Below, in pieces: positions 19,019 to 33,565 of a stretch of DNA of 64,000 bases. The stretch covers positions 1 through 64,000 of the forward strand of contig CAIKMJ010000012.1 of NCBI GenBank assembly GCA_903828455.1, written 5' to 3'. Position numbers and translations under genes: made by a program. The notes under the pieces were generated by a model. That model saw only the letters and a program-made list of their open reading frames with translations. It ran no database searches and was not told where the DNA came from. The DNA is from an uncultured Acidobacteriia bacterium (GTDB taxonomy: Bacteria; Acidobacteriota; Terriglobia; Bryobacterales; Bryobacteraceae). How positions within the stretch are numbered: the stretch's first letter is position 1; every line of letters begins with the position of its first letter.

Positions 19019-22000
19019 TTAGAAATGGAACTTCAGTGCAAGCTGAAGTTGCCGCGATGAGTTCACAGTGGAAGTAATGCGACCGGACGTCGCATCGTAA
19101 GTTCCGGTACCGTTGGCGCCCGCGACAAAGACACCCTGACTCGGGAGGCCGAAGTTCGCGTGGTTAAACAGATTGAAGGCTTCGGCGCGGAACTGCATGT
19201 CGGTGTGCTCAGAGATCCGCTGCAGCCTGATGGTTCGCGTCATGGAAACGTCGATGGTTGCGAGGCTCGGCCCGACCAGGGTGTTTCTTCCCAGATTGCC
19301 GACGGTTCCCACGGCGGGAAGCGAGAAGGCTTTCGGATTGAACCACTGGGCAGGAGTGCCGAGGATGGGGTCGGGGCTGTTGCCGGCGATCAGGTTCGGA
19401 CGCTGGACGTTGCCGGTTTGCAGACCGGCCTGATCGAAGCCGACGAAGGCGGTGAACGGTTCGCCGGAGGCAAAATTCATCACGCTGCTGGCTTGCCAGC
19501 CGCCGAGAAGCGTATTGGTTATGTGATTGGCAAATGCGGGCATTTCATAAATGCCGCTCACGCGCAGTGCGTGGGTGCGATCGAAGTTCGACCGTCCATA
19601 TTCGTCGCGAATGTCATAGGGATTTTGCGTGAGTGCGGTGCCGCCGCTGTTTTCCGGGTTGCTGCTGGCGGAAGCATAGTCCATGGACTTCGAGTAAGTG
19701 TAGGCTGCCTGAGCCTGCCAGCTTCTGCTGAATCTGCGCACCAGGCTGGTCTGCAGCGAGTTGTAGTTCGAACTGCCCCAGTCCTGCCGGGCAACGAGGA
19801 AGCTGTATGCAGGGTTGACGCGGGCATTGGTCACGATCTTGCCGCCGATCAGTGAGGCGAACACAGGCTGGCCATTGGCGCCGACGGTGGGAATCGGCGG
19901 GTTGGTGTCGCGGCTGCTCAGGAGGTTGACTCCGCGCGAGCCGACATAGCCGGTGGTGAGAACGAAGCCGCCGCCGAGATCGCGCTGGATGTTGAGGTTG
20001 TACTGCATCATGTAAGGCGTCTTGCTGATGGTGTAATCCCAGTTGCTGTTGGCGGACGGAATCACGGGAGTGGTGCCGCCGAGGAAGGGAGTCGGATACG
20101 TGGGGAAGGTCTGGATCGAATTGTTATACGGGTAGCTGCGAAGATAGGCCGCGAAGGTGCGTGCCACCCAGACATCGTGGTAGATGCCGAAGCCGCCGCG
20201 AACTGCCGTCTTGTGGTCTCCGGTGACGTCATAGGCGAAGCCGAAGCGGGGTTCGAAGTTCTTCGTGGTGGGATTGGTCTGGAAAACGTTGGGAACCGTC
20301 ACGTAACTGCCGAACGGGCGGTTGATCAGATTGTGCAGTTTGTTGTTGCGCTCGGTGGGATTGGCTTCCCACTCGTAACGGAGCCCGATGTTCAGAGTCA
20401 GTCGCCGCGTGACCTTCCATTCGTCGTGGACATACGGTTTGACGTAGGTCTCGCGGATGTCGCGGGTGGTATCCTGCTGCCCGATGATCGGCGCCTGGAA
20501 TTGCGATGATGTTCCCAGCAGGAAGTTCTGAAGACTGGTAAAGGTCCATGCTCCGCCCGCGCCACCGGAAGCGGCCTGGTTCTCCTGCGCGCGGTCGATG
20601 GTGATGCCGAAGCGAACGCTGTGGGCTCCGCGTGTCCAGATGACGTCGTCGCCTTCGGTGAAGTGGTTCACGATGTAGTAGTAGGGGTCGTCCTGAACCG
20701 GACCGAGGGTGCTGAGGCTGGTGACGGAGACACGGCCGTCGGGACGTCCCGTGCCAGGGAAGTACTGCAGCGCCGGTATCGTGTTCGGCGGCTGGGCGCC
20801 TTCGGTGGGACGCAGGAAACTGAAGCGGGCCAGGTTGACGAGCGTGGGTGAAATGATATGCCGCTCTTCCACCGTCACGTAATTGTTGTTTGAAAAGTCC
20901 AGTTCCGGATAGAGCGGAATCGGCGTTGAAGCGAAGGGCAGATTGATATTCGCTTTGTCCCTGACCCAGCGCACGAAAATCGAGTCCTTCGCCGAGAAGT
21001 TATGGTCGAGGCGCGTCAGCACATAATCTTCATTGGTGATCGCGGCACGGACCTGCGTGGCGGTGCCAACGCCGTTGCCGAGTGGAGTGGTGGCCGCGGG
21101 GAAGAGCGGCAGCAGCGGAGCGATGATCGGATTGATGCCGACATTGGCCAGCCCGGTTGACGAGTCGCACTTAAACGTTGTCGCAACGTTGCAGGGCAGA
21201 AAACCCTTCTGGGCGTTGGCGTCGGGGACGTTCGCCGTGGACGTCTGCCCCAGGCTCTGCCGCAGGCCTTCGTAATTGACGAAGAAGAACGTCTTGTCCT
21301 TTCGGATCGGACCGCCCAGGCTGCCGCCGAACTGGTTGCGGCGGAATGAAGGGACGGCTGCAGTGGTGGCGCCCGGCTTAATGAAATTGTCGAAGAAGTT
21401 GCGCGCGTCGAACACGCTGTTGCGCAGGAATTCGTAGGCCGAGCCGCGCAGCGCGTTGGTGCCGGACCGCGTGACCGCATTGATGATTGCGCCGTTGCCG
21501 CCAAACTGCGCGCTGTAAGTGTTGGTCAGGGTCTGGAACTCACCGATGGCCTCGATACCCAGCGACGTACCCGCCGCGGCCGAACCGGTGCCGTGATCCG
21601 AATAACCGGCAAAGTTGGCGTTATCGATCAGCATCGTTTGTCCGGTAGGCCGGGATCCGGAAACCGAATAGTTCGGCTGATTGCCGTACTGCGTTCCACC
21701 CGTGGCGGGAAGCACCTGCACGCCTGGCGCAAGCGCCATGAGGTCCTGGAAGTTTCTGCCGTTCAGCGGCAGTTCGCGGATCTGCTTCTCATCCACCAGA
21801 CTGCCGAGCGCGACGGAACTGGTATCCACCTGCGAAGGTTGCGCATCGACGGTGACCGTTTGTTGCGACTGGCCTACCGGCAGTGTGACGTCGACGACGG
21901 CCTCGATGCCGACAGTCAGCGTGATGCCCTTGCGAACAACGGTCTGGAAGCCCTGGCGGGAGGCGTGAACTTCGTAGTCGCCAACCTTCAGTTCGGGCAC

Positions 22001-22228
22001 GCGGAAGCGTCCCTGGGAATCGGTCTCGGAAAGCTGCGAGGTTCCGGTGCCCACGTTCTTCACGTCGACAGAAGCGCCGGCGACGACAGCGCCGGAAGCG
22101 TCAGTGACGGTGCCCAGAATGGTGGCCGTGGAACTCTGTGCCCACAGGGAAGTCGCTCCGAAGAGGCAGATAGATATTGCAGCGGCGAGCGCAAAGATGC
22201 CCCGCCTGTTTTTCGATTCCAAACGCAT
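19019..22228 (-). CDS. Oar-like outer-membrane protein
   Basis: This 1069-residue protein has a signal peptide ending near SLWAQ (residue 31), a carboxypeptidase-regulatory-like domain (about 33-112: ILGTVTDASGAVVAGASV, RVPELKVGDYEVHASRQGF), the linker VTVDAQPSQVDT, then the plug motif RELPLNGRNFQDLMALAPGV. The barrel has repeated strands such as LTLNIGLRYEWEANP and ends in LQLALKFHF. It closely resembles the products at 40664 and 44034, with the same domain order and similar lengths. A good ribosome-binding site (GAGAGG) precedes ATG 22228. No SusD-like partner lies next to it. Confidence 0.88.
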   Translation of the reverse strand: MRLESKNRRGIFALAAAISICLFGATSLWAQSSTATILGTVTDASGAVVAGASVDVKNVGTGTSQLSETDSQGRFRVPELKVGDYEVHASRQGFQTVVRKGITLTVGIEAVVDVTLPVGQSQQTVTVDAQPSQVDTSSVALGSLVDEKQIRELPLNGRNFQDLMALAPGVQVLPATGGTQYGNQPNYSVSGSRPTGQTMLIDNANFAGYSDHGTGSAAAGTSLGIEAIGEFQTLTNTYSAQFGGNGAIINAVTRSGTNALRGSAYEFLRNSVFDARNFFDNFIKPGATTAAVPSFRRNQFGGSLGGPIRKDKTFFFVNYEGLRQSLGQTSTANVPDANAQKGFLPCNVATTFKCDSSTGLANVGINPIIAPLLPLFPAATTPLGNGVGTATQVRAAITNEDYVLTRLDHNFSAKDSIFVRWVRDKANINLPFASTPIPLYPELDFSNNNYVTVEERHIISPTLVNLARFSFLRPTEGAQPPNTIPALQYFPGTGRPDGRVSVTSLSTLGPVQDDPYYYIVNHFTEGDDVIWTRGAHSVRFGITIDRAQENQAASGGAGGAWTFTSLQNFLLGTSSQFQAPIIGQQDTTRDIRETYVKPYVHDEWKVTRRLTLNIGLRYEWEANPTERNNKLHNLINRPFGSYVTVPNVFQTNPTTKNFEPRFGFAYDVTGDHKTAVRGGFGIYHDVWVARTFAAYLRSYPYNNSIQTFPTYPTPFLGGTTPVIPSANSNWDYTISKTPYMMQYNLNIQRDLGGGFVLTTGYVGSRGVNLLSSRDTNPPIPTVGANGQPVFASLIGGKIVTNARVNPAYSFLVARQDWGSSNYNSLQTSLVRRFSRSWQAQAAYTYSKSMDYASASSNPENSGGTALTQNPYDIRDEYGRSNFDRTHALRVSGIYEMPAFANHITNTLLGGWQASSVMNFASGEPFTAFVGFDQAGLQTGNVQRPNLIAGNSPDPILGTPAQWFNPKAFSLPAVGTVGNLGRNTLVGPSLATIDVSMTRTIRLQRISEHTDMQFRAEAFNLFNHANFGLPSQGVFVAGANGTGTYDATSGRITSTVNSSRQLQLALKFHF

Positions 22229-22404
22229 TCAGGTTTCCTCTCAACTCAGAAAGCAGTGCTCCGGGGTGGTACGTTGATCCCTGGTTGGAGCGAAGTCTAT
22301 CACAAGAAGGGGACTTCAATTGCGAGGGAATCGTAAAGAAGCGTGAGTGATTTCGGGCGAATGAAACGGAAGCGGTGAGCCGGGGAACGAAGTTGCGGAA
22401 GCAG

Positions 22405-22443
22405 GGAGGCGCGAATCGTGAGAGTTGGCCGATTCGCGCCTCC
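22405..22443. terminator. Hairpin downstream of the 22450-25287 phosphatase-like gene
   Basis: GGAGGCGCGAATCG pairs perfectly with CGATTCGCGCCTCC (14 bases) around an 11-base loop, immediately after the stop of the minus-strand gene at 22450. Confidence 0.65.
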
Positions 22444-22449
22444 GCGGAG

Positions 22450-25287
22450 TTACTGGAGTGAAATGACAACGCCGGCGGGAGTTTGCGTTCCGCCAGCCGA
22501 TGCGGAGAGCGACAGATCACCGGCGCCGAGACCCTGAGGAATCGTGAAGTTGATCTGATACAGTCCGCCGCTGGTCATTCCGGAGTAAGTTGGAGTAACT
22601 TTGACGTTGTTGATGAGCAGGGTGACCGGATTCGCCGTGGGTGCGGAACCGGAGAACGCCGATCCGGCGGGGACCGCTGGATTTGTGGGGCCGAGTCCTA
22701 CGGCGAACAGTTCCACGGTGTCGCCTGCCTTCGCCGCAACGGTGCCGTAGCCGAGCGAACTGCCGGTGGGGCCGATGATGTCGTAGGTACCGCCGCCGTA
22801 AGCTCCCGAGCCATTGGAGCGGAGAATGATTCCCGCGACGTGTTTGCCGTCGAGAAGGCTGAATGACGGCGCCGCCGGTGCCAGGGTGACGGTGGATGTT
22901 GCCGTGCCGTAAGGCGTGGTGACAATTACCTGGACGGGTCCGGCGGTAGTGTCATCCGGGGCCTGCAGATTGATCTGCGTGGGGCTGACGTACCAGAGAT
23001 ACGCGGGCTTGCCGTTGATGGTCACGCTGGTGCCGTTCAGCGACGTGGGGAAGTTACCCTTCCATGTGGCTGTGGAGGCGGCGAGATTTGTGCCATAGAT
23101 CGAGACCCAGGAACCGGGCTGAATGGCGGGAACCGAACTGTACACAGGCACGATGCCGGAGGAGGCGATGGTGGGTGCGAGGGCGGATGTTGCCAGCGTG
23201 CCGATCGTGTAACTGTCCTGCACGGTGCCGCTGGTCACTCCGAGTCTGGTTGCATCCGCCGGGAGCCATTCGCGAATGTACTGGACGTTGACGCCGGTTG
23301 GCTGCACGGTGACTTTGAGGAAGCCGGCGTTCGGGTACAGCGTCTGGGTCGGCTGCGTGTAGGCGTCCGCGTTGAATGCGTAATAGGTGTTGTCAGCCGG
23401 ATTCGGCACCGACTGGTAAGTGACGGTGTGATAGGTCTGATGAACGTAGAGGTGATCGTGGGCCTGGAAGAAGACGGTGACCCCGGTGTCTTCGAGGAGT
23501 TGCTCGATGGTCTCCGGCCAGCTGTACGAAGCAGACGCGGGAGCATCGCATACCGTACATGGCTGGCGGTTCGCGGCAAAGCCGGACGTGCCGGTGCCGT
23601 TGAGCCCGCCCCATTCGTAATACGGAACAACTTCCACGCCGCCGCGACTGGTGCCGAGAACATGGTGGACGAAGACGAACTTCCATTTGGCTGTGCTGTT
23701 TTTGAGCGTTTGGGCCATCCACTGGTATTGCGCGTTGCCCTGGGTGATCAGCCAGCTGTTGGAGGTCTTGGCCGCCTGATCGTTCAGGCCGGAATCGACT
23801 TGTGCGGGCGAGCCCCAGTATGGATCGATGACCATGAAGAGCGCATCGCCCCACGTCCAGGCGTAGTAATCGCGCAGGTTGCCGTTGATCCTGGCTAACT
23901 GAGTCTGATTGCCGGTGTAGAAGGTGCCGGTAATCGGGTCGTTCGGGCCAGGGGAAGGGAAGTAGAGATTGCGGGCATTCTGGGCCCAGATGGGTACCTG
24001 GTTATCGTTGTTGACGTTGTCCGGCAGCAGGTAGTTATAAAGCGACGTTTGTTCGTGGTTGCCGGTGCCGAGGAAAAGTGCTCCGGTGGTGATCTGATCG
24101 AAATAGGGCAACTGGATCGGGTAGCGCGCAACCACGGCCGCCTGTGTGTAAGGGTTTTGCACGCTCTGGACGCTGAAGTCGTCGCCGTTGGTGATGTGGA
24201 AATCGGGATGGGCCGCCGCCACGCCGTTCATGGTCAGGTTGTAAAGATCCGAGTGGAACATGGTGCCCACGCGTTCGGGATGGGAATCGCCCTGCACGGT
24301 AAATACAAAGCTGCTTCCCGGCTTCCGCTGGGTATGGAAGGAACGTTCGGTGCCTGCTGTGTAGGGGCCGCCGGAGCCCGCGGCGCGGTACTGAATCCGG
24401 TAGTAATACTGCGTATCGATCTGCAGGCCGCTGAACACCGTTTGCGAGACCCAGGAGTTGGGAGTGTAGGGATCGGCGGTTGTGGTGATGACCGGCGTCG
24501 TGCCCGTGTAGTTTCCGGATGTGGTGCCGTACTGGTAATACATGTCGATGGAAGCGCTGGCCTGCACGTTGACGGTGGCGTTGCGGTCGGTCGGCTGACC
24601 GAGAATCTGGGTGAAGGTGATGGCGCCGGGCGCGATGTAGGTGAACAGACTGTTGGGCGCGCTGGTGCCAACTGCGTTGGTGACCGCGACGCTGGCAGTG
24701 CCGGCAGTTCCTTTGCCGGTGGTGACGGAGATCGAGCTGTCGCCTTTGATCGTGAGGCCGGTGGCGGGGACGCCGCCAATCGTGACGCCGGTTGCTCCGG
24801 AGAAGCCGGAGCCCGAGATGGTGACTTTCGTTCCGCCGGCGGTGGAACCTGTGCTCGGCGTGATGCCGGAGATGCCCGGCGGCGAGGGCAAATAGGTGAA
24901 AAGCTTATTCGCGGCGCTGGTGCCGCCCGACGTCGTCACCTGAACACTCGCCGGTCCTGCTGCTCCGGGAGGGGCTTGCGTGGTTAGCGTCGTGTCGTTG
25001 ATGACGACCCAGTCGCCGGTTCCGAGATTCGTTCCGCCGATCGTTATGGAGGAAGTTCCGGTGAGGCCGGTTCCTGTCACGGTGATCGGCGTGAATACAT
25101 TTGCCGGAGCGGAACCGGGCGAGACTGAGGTAACGACCGGAGCCGTGCCACCGCCGCCACCTGCGCCACCACCGCCGCCTTTCTGGGCGAGCAGCCCAAC
25201 GGCGGAAAAGGCACACAGCATGACTGCGATGCGTGCGGAGGGAAAGTAGACGCGCGGGAAAGACGTGCTGCTCATGCGGAGGGACAT
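22450..25287 (-). CDS. Secreted TIG/purple-acid-phosphatase-like metallophosphoesterase with Solibacter-type C-terminal domain
   Basis: This 945-residue protein has a signal peptide to about residue 35 and a Gly-rich linker. Two IPT/TIG Ig-like domains follow (about 48-133 and 135-217), then a fibronectin-like domain of the purple acid phosphatase type (about 222-322). The metallophosphoesterase domain carries all expected metal ligands: GDSH (333-336), NGDD (367-370), GNHE (409-412), HH (541-542) and AHDH (609-612). The last about 230 residues match the TIGR03437-type domain described from Solibacter (PGSWVSIYGTNLA, YVSPTQINLQAPD, GLYQINFTIPQG). It should be an exported phosphoesterase; the substrate is unknown. 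It is a tandem paralog of 25492-28317. Confidence 0.87.
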   Translation of the reverse strand: MSLRMSSTSFPRVYFPSARIAVMLCAFSAVGLLAQKGGGGGAGGGGGTAPVVTSVSPGSAPANVFTPITVTGTGLTGTSSITIGGTNLGTGDWVVINDTTLTTQAPPGAAGPASVQVTTSGGTSAANKLFTYLPSPPGISGITPSTGSTAGGTKVTISGSGFSGATGVTIGGVPATGLTIKGDSSISVTTGKGTAGTASVAVTNAVGTSAPNSLFTYIAPGAITFTQILGQPTDRNATVNVQASASIDMYYQYGTTSGNYTGTTPVITTTADPYTPNSWVSQTVFSGLQIDTQYYYRIQYRAAGSGGPYTAGTERSFHTQRKPGSSFVFTVQGDSHPERVGTMFHSDLYNLTMNGVAAAHPDFHITNGDDFSVQSVQNPYTQAAVVARYPIQLPYFDQITTGALFLGTGNHEQTSLYNYLLPDNVNNDNQVPIWAQNARNLYFPSPGPNDPITGTFYTGNQTQLARINGNLRDYYAWTWGDALFMVIDPYWGSPAQVDSGLNDQAAKTSNSWLITQGNAQYQWMAQTLKNSTAKWKFVFVHHVLGTSRGGVEVVPYYEWGGLNGTGTSGFAANRQPCTVCDAPASASYSWPETIEQLLEDTGVTVFFQAHDHLYVHQTYHTVTYQSVPNPADNTYYAFNADAYTQPTQTLYPNAGFLKVTVQPTGVNVQYIREWLPADATRLGVTSGTVQDSYTIGTLATSALAPTIASSGIVPVYSSVPAIQPGSWVSIYGTNLAASTATWKGNFPTSLNGTSVTINGKPAYLWYVSPTQINLQAPDDTTAGPVQVIVTTPYGTATSTVTLAPAAPSFSLLDGKHVAGIILRSNGSGAYGGGTYDIIGPTGSSLGYGTVAAKAGDTVELFAVGLGPTNPAVPAGSAFSGSAPTANPVTLLINNVKVTPTYSGMTSGGLYQINFTIPQGLGAGDLSLSASAGGTQTPAGVVISLQ

Positions 25288-25435
25288 ATGTTTTGATTAG
25301 CGGACAGAGTCGGATGCCGGCTTGCTGCCGCTGGCATTCCGAGCCGGGTTCTATTGTTCCACGATTCTAATACGTTATGCTGCCGGATTACTCGTGCACC
25401 CGGTACTGCTCACTCTGTAACGCGGAAAAACAAAT

Positions 25436-25460
25436 GCGCCACCAGCTGAGCTGATGGCGC
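25436..25460 (-). terminator. Intrinsic terminator of the 25492-28317 gene
   Basis: On the minus strand GCGCCATCAGCT and AGCTGGTGGCGC (one mismatch) form a compact hairpin followed by a T-rich stretch (ATTTGTTTTT). It lies 31 bases beyond the gene's stop. Confidence 0.7.
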
Positions 25461-25491
25461 GTCTGTCTCATTCGTACTATGCGTTGTGCGA

Positions 25492-28317
25492 CTACTGCAG
25501 CGAAATCGTCGCCACCGGCGTTTGCGTTCCGGCCACCGATGCGGATATCGAAACATCGCCGGTGCCGAGTCCCTGCGGAACTGTCAGATTGATCTGGTAG
25601 AGTCCGGCGCTGGTCATGCCCGCGTAGGTTGGCGTCACCTTCACATTGTTGATGAGAAGCGTGACGGGACTGCTGGTCGGCGCGGAACCCGAAAACGCTG
25701 CGCCCGCGGGAACCGCCGGCGTCGTCGGTCCCAGTCCGACCGCGAACAATTCGATGCTGTCACCCGCCCTGGCGGCAACGGTAGCGTAGCCGAGCGAACT
25801 GCCGGTCGGCCCCACGATGTCATAGGTGCCGCCGCCAAATGCGCCCTTGCCGTTGGAGCGGAGAATGATGCCGGCCACGTGCTTGCTGTCGAGCAGGCTG
25901 AAGGAAGGAGCGGCCGGGGCCAGCGTCACCGTCGACGATGCTGTTCCGTTGAGAGTGGTCACGACGACCGGGACCGGACCGGTGGTGGTGTCATTCGGGG
26001 CCTGCAGATTAATCTGCGTGGGGCTGACGTACCAGAGATACGCGGGCTTGCCGTTGATGGTCACGCTGGTGCCGGCGAGAGACGTCGGGAAGTTGCCGGT
26101 CCAGGTCGCGGTGCCGCTGGCAAGGTTGGTGCCGTAAATGGAGACCCACGATCCGGGCTGAATGGTCGGGACCGTGCTGTAGACCGGCACGATGCCGGAC
26201 GAGGCGACGGTCGGCAGCGGGCCTGTTGCGGTCGGGTTGCCGATGTTGTACGAGTCCTGGATCATGGTGCTGGAGACGCCGCGGGTCACGGCGTCGGCCG
26301 GGAGCCACTCGCGAACGTACTGTACGTTCACGCCGGTTGGCTGCACGGTTACTTTGAGGAAGCCCGCGTTGCCGTACAGAGTTTGTCCCGGCTGCGTGTA
26401 AGCATCGGCGTTGAATGCGGTGTAGGTATTGTCGGCGGGATTGGGGACCGATTGGTAGGTCACGCCGTCTTTCACCTGGTGAACATAAATATGATCGTGA
26501 GCCTGGAAGAAGGCCGTCACGTTGGTATCCACGAACAGTTGATGGATCGGTTCGGTCCAGAAATACGGGGTCGTGCCGGGCGGATCGCATACGGTGCAGG
26601 GCTGGCGGTTGGCCGCAAAGCCCGCTGATCCCGTAGCGTTTTCGCCGCCCCATTCATAGAATGCAGCGGTTTCGACGCCGCCGCGTCCGGTGCCCATGAC
26701 GTGGTGGGCGAAGATAAACTTCCATTTCGCCGTGCTGTTCTTCAGCGTCTGCGACATCCACTGGTACTGCTCGTTGCCGTGGCTCTTGAGCCACTCGTTG
26801 GAAGTCTTGCTGACACCGGAGTTGTTGGCGCCGAGCGGAGTGTCAACCATGGCTTGCGATCCCCAGTAAGGGTCGATGACCATAAACAGCGCATCGCCCC
26901 AGGTCCACGCATAGTAATCGCGCAGATTGCCGTTGATATTGGGTAGCTGGGTCTGGTTGCCGCTATAGAACGTCCCGGTGACGGGGTCGTTCGGACCAGG
27001 CGACGGATAGTAGAGGTTGCGCGCGTTTTGCGCCCAGACGGCAACCTGGCTGCTGTTGCTCGAATCGACCGGGAGATTGTAGTTGTAAAGCGATGTCTCT
27101 TCGTGATTGCCGGTGCCGAGGAACAGGGCGCCGCTGCTGAGCAGATTGAAGTACGGCAACTGCAGCGTGTAGCGGCCCACCACGCCCGCCTGATTGTAAG
27201 GCGGCGCCAGTGTGTCGACGCTGAAATCGTCGCCGTTGGTGATGTGAAAATCCGGATTCGCCGCGGCCACGCCGGACAGCGTCTGGTTGTACAGATCCGA
27301 ATGAAACATCTTGAGTACGCGTTCCGGATGGGAATCGCCCTGCACCGTGAATACGAACGAACTGCCTGGCTTGCGCTGGGTGTGGAAGGACCGCTCCGCT
27401 CCCGCGGTATAGGGCGCCGTTGTGCCGGCCGGCCGGTATTGAATTCGATAGTAATACTGGGTATCGATCTGCAGATTGTTGAAAACGGTTTGCGCAACGA
27501 AAGCTCCGCTGGTATACGGATCCGCCTTTGTGGTGCCGACCGGCGTGGTTGCCGTGTAGTTGCCGGACGAGGTTCCGTACTGGTAGTACATGTCGATCGC
27601 CGCGCTGGATTGCACGTTCACCGTGGCGTTGTGATCGGTTGGTTGCCCAAGGATCTGGGTGTACTGGACGGAGCCGGGAGTGATGTAAGTGAAGAGTTGA
27701 TTGGCGGGATTGCTGCCGTTGGCCGTTGTGACGACCACGCTTGCCGCTCCGGCTGTTCCGGCACCGGTGGTGGCCGTCATCTGCCCGTCCTTGGCGACCT
27801 TAACGTTCGTTGCCGGCACTCCGCCGACTGTGACCGCGGTCGCGCCGGTAAAGCCGACGCCGACGATCGTAATGTTTGTTCCGCCTGTTGTTGGCCCGGT
27901 ATTGGGACTGACACCTCCGACCGATGGCGGTGCGGCGAGATACGTGAACAAAGTGTTATCGGCATTTTTACCGCTTGCCGTGGTGACCACCACACTCGCG
28001 GTGCCAACGCTGCCGGGAGGCGTTGCCGTGGTAATGGTGTTCGCGTCCACCACGATCCACCCGCCCGTTCCCACGGAGGTGCCGCCGATCGAGACGTCTG
28101 TCGCTCCCGTGAAATTGGCGCCGACAATGGTGACCGGAGTGTTGCCCGTAGACGGGCCCGAACTGGGCGTGATCGAAGTAACGACCGGAATCGTGCCGCC
28201 GGGCGCCTGCCCCGCCAGGGCGGCAGCGGCGAGGGCGCAGAGGGCAAACATCATGCGTGCGCCGGAAATGAGCGTCCGGGTAGCCGGAATTGTATTCAAA
28301 CGAGAGGACAGTTTCAT
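25492..28317 (-). CDS. Secreted TIG/purple-acid-phosphatase-like metallophosphoesterase, tandem paralog
   Basis: This 941-residue protein has the same domain order as its downstream neighbour: signal peptide (MMFALCALAAAALAGQ), two IPT/TIG domains, a fibronectin-like domain, a metallophosphoesterase domain (QGDSHPERV, NGDDFS, GTGNHEETS, AHHVMGTGRGG, FQAHDHIYVH) and the Solibacter-type C-terminal domain. All metal ligands are kept. It lacks the Gly-rich linker after the signal peptide. About 204 bases separate the two genes, with a terminator between, so they are probably separate transcripts. Stretches of the two genes are almost identical at DNA level, which points to a fairly recent duplication or gene conversion. 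Confidence 0.87.
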   Translation of the reverse strand: MKLSSRLNTIPATRTLISGARMMFALCALAAAALAGQAPGGTIPVVTSITPSSGPSTGNTPVTIVGANFTGATDVSIGGTSVGTGGWIVVDANTITTATPPGSVGTASVVVTTASGKNADNTLFTYLAAPPSVGGVSPNTGPTTGGTNITIVGVGFTGATAVTVGGVPATNVKVAKDGQMTATTGAGTAGAASVVVTTANGSNPANQLFTYITPGSVQYTQILGQPTDHNATVNVQSSAAIDMYYQYGTSSGNYTATTPVGTTKADPYTSGAFVAQTVFNNLQIDTQYYYRIQYRPAGTTAPYTAGAERSFHTQRKPGSSFVFTVQGDSHPERVLKMFHSDLYNQTLSGVAAANPDFHITNGDDFSVDTLAPPYNQAGVVGRYTLQLPYFNLLSSGALFLGTGNHEETSLYNYNLPVDSSNSSQVAVWAQNARNLYYPSPGPNDPVTGTFYSGNQTQLPNINGNLRDYYAWTWGDALFMVIDPYWGSQAMVDTPLGANNSGVSKTSNEWLKSHGNEQYQWMSQTLKNSTAKWKFIFAHHVMGTGRGGVETAAFYEWGGENATGSAGFAANRQPCTVCDPPGTTPYFWTEPIHQLFVDTNVTAFFQAHDHIYVHQVKDGVTYQSVPNPADNTYTAFNADAYTQPGQTLYGNAGFLKVTVQPTGVNVQYVREWLPADAVTRGVSSTMIQDSYNIGNPTATGPLPTVASSGIVPVYSTVPTIQPGSWVSIYGTNLASGTATWTGNFPTSLAGTSVTINGKPAYLWYVSPTQINLQAPNDTTTGPVPVVVTTLNGTASSTVTLAPAAPSFSLLDSKHVAGIILRSNGKGAFGGGTYDIVGPTGSSLGYATVAARAGDSIELFAVGLGPTTPAVPAGAAFSGSAPTSSPVTLLINNVKVTPTYAGMTSAGLYQINLTVPQGLGTGDVSISASVAGTQTPVATISLQ

Positions 28318-28520
28318 GGGAATAGAGTGTGTGTGGCGTCAGCGGTCGCCGGGAATGCCTCGCCGCGATTTCGCGTATTCAACAGTTTAATACCGGGTCC
28401 AGATTCGGGACGCAGCGGGAAGCCGGCGCGTTTCGTGATTTTGCCATGGATTTGTGCCTTTGTGGCGCATAGCCACGTACGGCGCCCGGATGCTAACCTT
28501 TGCTGCATGGTGTGCCGTTA

Positions 28521-29882
28521 ATGGAGCGTCGGGCGCCACGAATCCGGCGGTCGGGTTCCGGGCCGGCCGGGGTCCGGTTCATCCGGACGGCGCTGCTTGC
28601 CGCCGTGACGGTTGCGCGCCTGGCGGGGCAAAACGTCTCGCCGGGCGAGTTTCGCTCGGTGCCTTTCGAGCAATGGCTTGCCGAACCGGAACAAAAGGGA
28701 CTCCGGTGGGACATTCGGATCGCCGAGCCGCAGCTTTCCAGCCACCAGCGGCTCGTCTCGCGCATCGACATTACGATCGACGGCAGCGAACTGGCGAAGC
28801 GACGCAGCGAAGGCGAATTCATGCTGCTGGTGCAGATCACCGACCAGCAGAAAATGAGCTATCGTGACGCCGAGACGGTAGATCTTTCCCGCCTCCCGGA
28901 AGCGGCGCGATTCAAGGACTTCGTTTTCGAACGGCGTTTCTTCGTGGTGCCGGGCGACTACCAGATTGCCGTTGCCGCTTACGACACCAGTTCGAAAAAG
29001 CATTTTTTTGTCCGCCGGAGGCTTCACGTTGCGGCGCTTCGCAATGACCCGCTGCCCGGTGCGTGGCAAAGCGTTCCCGCGGTGGAATTCCTGCCGGTGG
29101 CGCACGGCACCGAAGGCTGGTACCTTCCCTCCGTCGAGAGCCGCGTCCGGATCGCGGCGCAGTCGGCGCGCGCCGGCCGCATCGAAGTGTTGCTGAATCT
29201 CAGCCCCGGCGATGAATCCGAACGCACGACCGGGTTGCGAATCAGGAATCTCGCGTCGCTCGTTCCGTCTTTTAAAGTGCTGGCGCAGATGGCTCATGAT
29301 GGCTCGGTACTGAATGCCGCCGTGTTCGACCTCGAGCACCAGCGGGTGGTGTTCGGGCAGGAGAACGTCGTGCGCCTGAATGCGGACAGACTTCTGGATG
29401 CGATCGACGGCGACCAGCCCGGGATCATCGATGTCAAGGCTCTCGAAAACCGTCATTCCAGCGCCCGTTTTTTTGCTTCCGAAGTGCTGCGCCGCCTCGA
29501 CCCGCCGGCGTCGCCGGGCTCCGTTTCGGGGCCATGTGCCGTCATCGTTCTGACCAGCGCGGTGAACTTCGAGAAGGGTGCGGATCTGCGGCCGGTTGAA
29601 GCCGCGCTGCCTGCGGGCTCACGGGTCTTCTACCTTCGTTACCAGCCGGTCGGCATGATCCGGACGGTACAGGCTGTGCCGTCTGTGTCCGGACGGCTCA
29701 CTGGTTTGCGGCGCGCCACCGACGAAATTTACACGACCATGCGGGCCACAGGGTACAGTGTTGTTCCGGATCAACTGGCCGCCGTGCTGAAGCCGCTCGA
29801 TCCGCAGGTCTTCGACATTTCGACGCCGGAGGAGTTTCGGCGCGCGCTCGCCACCGTGCTGGCCGAGATTGCGAAGATGTAG
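28521..29882 (+). CDS. Secreted protein of unknown function (VWFA-domain-associated acidobacterial type)
   Basis: This 453-residue protein has a basic N-terminus and a hydrophobic export segment (FIRTALLAAVTVARLAGQ). I recognise no catalytic domain. The middle has beta-rich segments (FERRFFVVPGDYQIAVAAYD) and the C-terminal third has a Rossmann-like alternation (GPCAVIVLTSAVNFEKGADL, VFYLRYQP) that resembles a von Willebrand A-like fold without a clear MIDAS motif. I use ATG 28521; a TTG at 28500 would add seven residues. It lies 44 bases before the DUF5060-type gene on the same strand and may be cotranscribed with it. Confidence 0.65.
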   Translation: MERRAPRIRRSGSGPAGVRFIRTALLAAVTVARLAGQNVSPGEFRSVPFEQWLAEPEQKGLRWDIRIAEPQLSSHQRLVSRIDITIDGSELAKRRSEGEFMLLVQITDQQKMSYRDAETVDLSRLPEAARFKDFVFERRFFVVPGDYQIAVAAYDTSSKKHFFVRRRLHVAALRNDPLPGAWQSVPAVEFLPVAHGTEGWYLPSVESRVRIAAQSARAGRIEVLLNLSPGDESERTTGLRIRNLASLVPSFKVLAQMAHDGSVLNAAVFDLEHQRVVFGQENVVRLNADRLLDAIDGDQPGIIDVKALENRHSSARFFASEVLRRLDPPASPGSVSGPCAVIVLTSAVNFEKGADLRPVEAALPAGSRVFYLRYQPVGMIRTVQAVPSVSGRLTGLRRATDEIYTTMRATGYSVVPDQLAAVLKPLDPQVFDISTPEEFRRALATVLAEIAKM

Positions 29883-32590: not shown

Positions 32591-33565
32591 ATGGTGCCGA
32601 AGAACACGAACAATACGCACAATCGCAGGAGCAAAAGCGCGCTGAAAACACTCGCACTGGCGGCCTGTTTCACACTTACTGTCGCGGGTTTCGAAACCCG
32701 TGCGCTCGCAGCCAACATCATTCAGAACGGGACATTTACTTCAACCACCGGAACGTTTGGCACGGCTGGCGGCGGACTCAATACGCTGAAGAGTGACGCC
32801 GTCACCAACGATTACACAGGCGGCGGCTCGCTCGCCAACTGGACGGTCGTGGATGTGGGCAGTTCTCAGGGGCTTGCCTTCCTCTATATGAACGGCAATC
32901 AGGGGAGTACCACGACCAATGGTGACGGCGTGACCGTTAACGGACGGTTCGGTACTTACGGTCTTTACGATCCGGGTAACATTGCCGGCGCTACTCCGCA
33001 TGGCGGTGCGATCCCGAATACAAGTCCCGGCGGCGGGAACTTCATCGTTGCCGACGGTGCCGCAAGTTATAGTGTCGCGATCTATCAGACGCTTACCGGC
33101 CTGACACCCGGCGCCTCATACACGGTGTCTTTCTACTATGCCGCCGGTCAGCAGGATACCTTCAGCGGCAACACTACTGAAGGCTGGCAGGTGTCCTTCG
33201 AAAACAGCGCGCAAAAGACTCAGGTTACTGCCAATGGCACTACCATCCAGGACACCCCGACCCAGGCGAATATCTCCGGCACAAGCACCCCCGGTCTTGT
33301 GAGCGGCGGTTTTCAGGCTTGGGCGCTGGATACGATGACCTTCACGGCGTCCGCCTCCACCCAGGTGCTGACCTTTTTGTCGATGGGCACGCCCGATGGG
33401 GAGCCGCCGGCCGACCTCCTCTCCGACGTCGTGGTGAACGCAACGGCAACGCCGGAGCCAGCCTCCGCAGTGACGTCGGCGACGGGAATGGCGGCGCTGG
33501 TTGGCCTTATCTGGTTCCGCAGAAAACTCAAAGCACGCTCAGGCGCGGCAGAGCTGAATAATTAA
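32591..33565 (+). CDS. PEP-CTERM sorted exported protein
   Basis: This 324-residue protein has a signal peptide (ALAACFTLTVAGFETRALAA) and a beta-rich, Gly/Thr-rich domain (NIIQNGTFTS start, then AIYQTLTGLTPGASYTVSFY) of the kind seen in DUF642-like or carbohydrate-binding extracellular proteins. It ends in a PEP-CTERM sorting signal: TPEPAS, a hydrophobic helix and the basic tail RRKLKAR. Exosortase/EpsH would process it at the inner membrane; no exosortase gene is in the window. The 191-base gap upstream contains a perfect 12-base palindrome GCTGGTACCAGC (32519-32530), and a terminator follows the gene. Confidence 0.85.
   Translation: MVPKNTNNTHNRRSKSALKTLALAACFTLTVAGFETRALAANIIQNGTFTSTTGTFGTAGGGLNTLKSDAVTNDYTGGGSLANWTVVDVGSSQGLAFLYMNGNQGSTTTNGDGVTVNGRFGTYGLYDPGNIAGATPHGGAIPNTSPGGGNFIVADGAASYSVAIYQTLTGLTPGASYTVSFYYAAGQQDTFSGNTTEGWQVSFENSAQKTQVTANGTTIQDTPTQANISGTSTPGLVSGGFQAWALDTMTFTASASTQVLTFLSMGTPDGEPPADLLSDVVVNATATPEPASAVTSATGMAALVGLIWFRRKLKARSGAAELNN

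Follow-up and report, generated by a model that had tools for sequence, protein, structure and literature searches.

Introduction

For M. tuberculosis, a preprint on gene conversion between paralogues reports short tracts, with an IQR of 33 to 244 bp taken as the event size, donors and acceptors that lie 1 kb to 2.14 Mb apart, and fewer conversion events at higher divergence (PMC13061034). The report on Candidatus Solibacter usitatus describes many paralogues that are mostly not recent, and its main text does not contain the term gene conversion (PMC3174227). A literature search combining gene conversion with Acidobacteria and Solibacter gave one match that, judged by its title, concerns HuH endonucleases, and a search on the C-terminal domain family TIGR03437 gave no match.

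Here we describe two neighboring genes, A and B, in a 64,000-nucleotide stretch of DNA (the window) from an uncultured Acidobacteriia bacterium. Both have tails that are plain members of TIGR03437 (Soli_cterm, an NCBIfam paralog_domain), and the tails share a near-identical patch. In size, this patch fits the short-tract gene conversion of M. tuberculosis paralogues as presented in the preprint, whereas A and B are only 72% identical and come from a single genome, and the M. tuberculosis rate falls with divergence, so that conversion would not be expected to occur readily in such a pair (PMC13061034). We consider it probable that A and B are old paralogues, that a conversion tract of ~85 bp arose in the lineage of this genome, and that the whole C-terminal domain is separately exchangeable. 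The mechanisms are ordinary, the example is neat, and the family is little studied: the analysis provides a single well-bounded candidate tract of conversion, and a clean chimera from a domain swap, in an "uncharacterized" family of secreted proteins that has ~60 matches in each of the three genomes for which they were counted.

Architecture of the tandem genes

The two genes and their parts are as follows (window coordinates).

22450..25287, minus strand: gene A, 945 aa, secreted phosphatase-like protein
24634..25140, minus strand: three TIG stretches of A, extent approximate, best stretch aa 50-132
23188..24612, minus strand: phosphatase part of A, aa 226-700
22456..23133, minus strand: Soli_cterm (TIGR03437) of A, residues 719-944 of 945, profile match
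25492..28317, minus strand: gene B, 941 aa, tandem paralogue of A
27682..28188, minus strand: three TIG stretches of B, extent approximate, best stretch aa 44-126
26239..27660, minus strand: phosphatase part of B, aa 220-693
25495..26175, minus strand: Soli_cterm (TIGR03437) of B, residues 715-941 of 941, profile match

A sequence-only reading of this DNA had ascribed the full five-part architecture to both genes, and this was borne out in A and B. The common order is a signal-like N terminus, three TIG stretches, a purple-acid-phosphatase-like N domain, a metallophosphatase-like domain, and Soli_cterm; the N terminus of each protein is hydrophobic and, judged by eye, signal peptide-like. Over 936 aligned codons, the whole genes were 71.7% identical in nucleotides and 71.5% in amino acids. 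Identity along the pair was uneven, as had been claimed from the greater differences in other parts of the genes: in 50-residue windows, amino acid identity was ∼0.45 to 0.68 in the TIG stretches, 0.62 to 0.92 in the catalytic part, and 0.80 to 0.92 in the tail.

Long open frames opposite gene B (25486-26628 and 27028-28521, plus strand) are probably a by-product of codon bias. Adjoining gene A, an outer-membrane beta-barrel protein with a carboxypeptidase-regulatory-like domain is encoded at 19019-22228 on the minus strand. Farther along, the protein at 32591-33565 (plus strand) ends in what we take, from a motif found by eye, to be a PEP-CTERM-like tail.

The phosphatase-like part

The Pfam hits in this part (Pur_ac_phosph_N, PhoD, and Metallophos; 18.3 to 22 bits) all fell below the gathering scores of 21.5 to 30, so that by sequence it is not filed under PF00149, PF16656, or PF09423. 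Residues D334, H336, D369, N410, H411, H541, H610, and H612 of A were invariant in 27/27 aligned rows, and this D-x-H, D, N-H, H, H-x-H series is presumably of the metal-ligand type of metallophosphatases. The predicted model of A (mean pLDDT, 77.4) matched lupin PPD1 (3zk4), PhoD (2yeq), and kidney bean purple acid phosphatase in fold (for 3zk4_B, E value of 1.2e-18 and 14% identity). A profile of the relatives matched the purple acid phosphatase chains 6gja and 6git with E values of 1e-4 to 2e-4 (one figure being 1.2e-4). Judged from sequence and model, A and B encode secreted metallophosphatase-like proteins with putative phosphatase activity. Their likeness to the purple acid phosphatase/PhoD-like metallophosphatases lies in the fold, the ligand-type residues, and the profile match; they differ in that structural alignments reach only 11 to 15% identity and in having TIG stretches and a Soli_cterm domain in addition.

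Relatives of the phosphatase part (loci L248-L327) occurred in many phyla, often as adjacent genes, and most were without a detectable Soli_cterm-like tail. At least two homologous frames were present at 38 of the 73 loci having a qualifying open frame.

The C-terminal domain

Against a cutoff of 29.05 bits, the TIGR03437 profile scored about 173.4 to 178 bits for the tail of A and about 167.3 to 172.1 bits for that of B. The near-identical part had been assigned to a Solibacter-type C-terminal domain, and it does lie within the TIGR03437 match in both genes. The genome that carries A and B (G000) has 61 matches, two of them under the cutoff, and genomes G015 and G013 have 62 and 63, respectively.

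Modeled alone, the tail was all beta (pLDDT, 75) and matched multidomain Ig/IPT structures, fragments of plexin and MET among them, at TM-scores of 0.2 to 0.4, which indicate the fold class only; a search of the tail profile against solved structures gave no match at E values up to 1. The model thus predicts a tandem Ig/IPT-like tail, a prediction absent from the one-line NCBI description of TIGR03437. We infer that this module may attach the enzyme to a surface or matrix, or display it.

Extent and statistics of the near-identical patch

The patch occupies the following positions.

22951..23035, minus strand: patch in A, 2/85 positions differing from B, exact run at 22973-23035
25990..26074, minus strand: patch in B, exact run at 26012-26074

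The sequence-only reading had given ∼85 bases with only two differences, and both the coordinates and the count proved exact. The mismatches are at 22956 and 22972; just outside the patch, differences are again dense on either side, giving it sharp edges. The exact run measures 63 nucleotides, and the second longest in the gene pair measures 22. When the codon columns of A and B were shuffled, neither the 63-nucleotide run nor the best 84-nucleotide window was reproduced (0/5,000 for each); a stricter shuffle that kept the amino acid match pattern gave the run in 3/5,000 cases and the window in 0/5,000. An RNA element or structure in the patch was considered and rejected, with fold z-scores of -0.07, -0.39, and -0.37 and no Rfam match at gathering score across 22000-28800.

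At sites where A and B encode the same amino acid, the codons were identical at 25/26 sites in the patch, compared with 80/172 in the rest of the tail and linker (0.41 expected from codon usage), 45/94 in the TIG stretches (0.40 expected), and 198/346 in the catalytic part, somewhat above the 0.46 expected. A column-specific null was built by taking the codon frequencies of each column from other copies of the TIGR03437 domain. Under it, the patch had 24/25 matching codons at a mean expectation of 0.53 (P = 1e-6), and the tail flanks were near their expectation of 0.40 (9/26, P = 0.79; 63/133, P = 0.035). Under the strictest null, the larger of the column-specific and gene-specific codon frequencies, A-B ranked first among 6,926 pairs when the windows were 25 codons long (3.7e-6) and third when they were 20 codons long; the best P value multiplied by 6,926 pairs is ∼0.03 before windows are counted. 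The pair ranked second under the simplest null and 13th under the column-specific null. Among all 11,175 pairs of 150 domain copies from G000, G013, and G015, the A-B run of 63 was the longest, followed by 38 (A with C2c, a frame described below, at the same place) and 36 (between genomes).

Such a patch could also arise with no conversion at all, through purifying selection and common preferred codons in a well-conserved stretch. Codon matching between genomes was slightly raised in this segment (observed/expected 1.11, against 1.03 for the rest), A matched the copies of other genomes at a mean of 0.55 against 0.42 expected, and 18/22 patch codons matched between A and an unrelated G015 gene, L153 (P = 0.002). 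Therefore, part of the likeness of A and B appears to be codon preference. A-B nevertheless retained its P value of 1e-6 under the column-specific null, and orthologue pairs matched at fewer codons: 13/23 between A and G015, 15/22 between A and G013, and 7/20 between G015 and G013. The last figure means that these codons are not kept constant across species. We regard codon preference and selection as an unlikely explanation of the whole patch.

Orthologues and gene trees

In the patch, A was 98% identical to B, 77% to its orthologue in G015, and 79% to that in G013; according to its description, the genome set includes a single genome for each species. The tree of the upstream phosphatase part was (B,(G13,(A,G15))), with support of 100/100 for G13+A+G15 and 97/99 for all four, and a clade of A and B was rejected (p-AU of 2.7e-6). 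The tract therefore sides with the genome against the gene tree. Taken together, the upstream tree and the patch identities make B the older paralogue, and the common patch looks younger than the split. The claim of gene conversion thus gains support from the sharp edges, from synonymous identity above the codon-matched null, and from the dissimilarity to the orthologues of A, and the word "recent" is fair relative to flanks that are nearly saturated at synonymous sites.

The adjacency of A and B, their common strand, and their common architecture would suit a recent tandem duplication of the whole gene with later divergence outside the patch. This was rejected by the upstream tree, which puts B outside A and its two orthologues, unless the upstream part of B itself came from elsewhere, and the near saturation of the patch flanks also speaks against it; we find it scarcely credible.

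In the proposed sequence of events, the branching of B would predate the separation of A from its orthologues in the two sister genomes. A tract of ~85 bp would then have been copied between A and B in the lineage of this genome, within the first half of their C-terminal domain, as a short nonreciprocal copy between neighboring paralogues atop an older exchange of the whole tail. We infer homologous recombination as the source of the patch, although homologous pairing is expected to be rare for genes that are 72% identical and have no further exact run above 22 nucleotides.

The tree of the tails grouped A, B, and C2c, with support of 77/86 (15 rows), 99/95 (25 rows), and 97/96 (patch removed), and AU tests did not reject a grouping of A with its orthologues (p of 0.06 to 0.21). 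From these aligned tails, the clade may reflect an earlier exchange of the complete tail among the three genes.

Probable exchange of whole C-terminal domains

C2c is an open frame (G000:C2:53644-55989) on another contig than A and B. Up to residue 547, its identity was 67% with C2b and 34% with A; beyond that residue, the figures were 33% with C2b, 81% with A, and 84% with B. C2c is a chimera: its upstream part belongs to the C2b subfamily, its tail is of the A/B type, and the junction falls in the linker at the domain edge. It is most simply the derived form, because the other five members of the upstream clade bear the other tail subtype. Within the A-type upstream clade, G10, G12, G16, and Um_a bear the other tail subtype. 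A protein of VK_bin-3395 (L249:5512-10998, plus strand; 1,829 aa) has TIG and a phosphatase part 67% like A, and its long C-terminal part gave no TIGR03437 match.

The near-identical part had been suggested to move between genes as a cassette. A search of the own genome with up to 131 bases around the patch found B at 91%, followed by C2c at 84% and then by copies at 81%, 79%, and lower, and the 85-base patch was therefore rejected as a genome-wide cassette. The suggestion appears to hold for the C-terminal domain as a whole, as in the C2c chimera.

A third source, such as C2c or an imported relative, could also have given the patch to A and B. In the patch, C2c shares 90% identity with each of them, with codon matches of 20/25 and 19/25, but this excess is modest (P of 0.003 and 0.008) and may reflect shared descent of the three tails together with codon preference. 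A third source appears quite improbable to us.

Strong upstream partners, defined as at least 200 bits over 200 residues, were available for 82 of the 150 copies in the three genomes. The best partner of the tail was also that of the upstream part for 42/82 genes. Strong tail discordance, in which the tail score to the upstream partner was less than half of the best, was found for 6/82 genes in four upstream families. If tails swap between enzymes, an annotation or phylogeny that leans on the common tail would mislead, and the swap pattern would itself speak for a tail module that is self-sufficient and independent of its partner.

Patches across the domain family

For the scan, 50 TIGR03437 matches were used from each of G000, G015, and G013, out of 61, 62, and 63, respectively, leaving aside lower-scoring or partial matches, some full-length copies among them (e.g., G000:C2:89404 and G013:C37:2747). 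Pairs with <120 aligned codons or <60 same-amino-acid codons were dropped, so that 6,926 of 11,175 pairs were kept; the list of exact runs used all 11,175.

At a threshold of 1e-4, the simplest null gave no within-genome enrichment of patches (4/2,291 pairs within genomes versus 5/4,635 between), and the column-specific null gave 18/2,291 versus 11/4,635. For several top pairs under the latter, such as L186/L209, codon matching was far above expectation over the whole domain at 31 to 41% amino acid identity. This has the appearance of codon bias throughout the gene; in the genes corresponding to L186 and L209, most of the listed codons end in C. Under the strictest null, the counts at 1e-4 were 2/2,291 within versus 1/4,635 between (20 codons) and 2/2,291 versus 0/4,635 (25 codons), and at 1e-3 they were 6/2,291 versus 3/4,635 or 6/2,291 versus 4/4,635. 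Patch events are thus few under this null, leaning toward within-genome pairs. Among 25 related copies, clustering of tails by genome was weak: G000 required 6 changes, with 39/500 shuffles as low, and the corresponding shuffle counts were 211/500 for G015, 500/500 for G013, and 30/200 for all groups.

A broader reading, possible but doubtful in our judgment, is that the Soli_cterm copies (∼60 per genome) form a pool for recombination and serve as interchangeable tail modules, so that secreted enzymes are repeatedly re-paired with tail subtypes by short conversions and by replacement of whole domains. If so, tails would evolve partly in concert within a genome and the enzymes would not.

The scanned copies also included G000:C28:19700-20368 and G000:C73:48957-49625, the tails of very long frames (2,222 and 2,357 aa), which share 87% of amino acids and 69% same codons and are apparently a duplicate pair younger than A/B.
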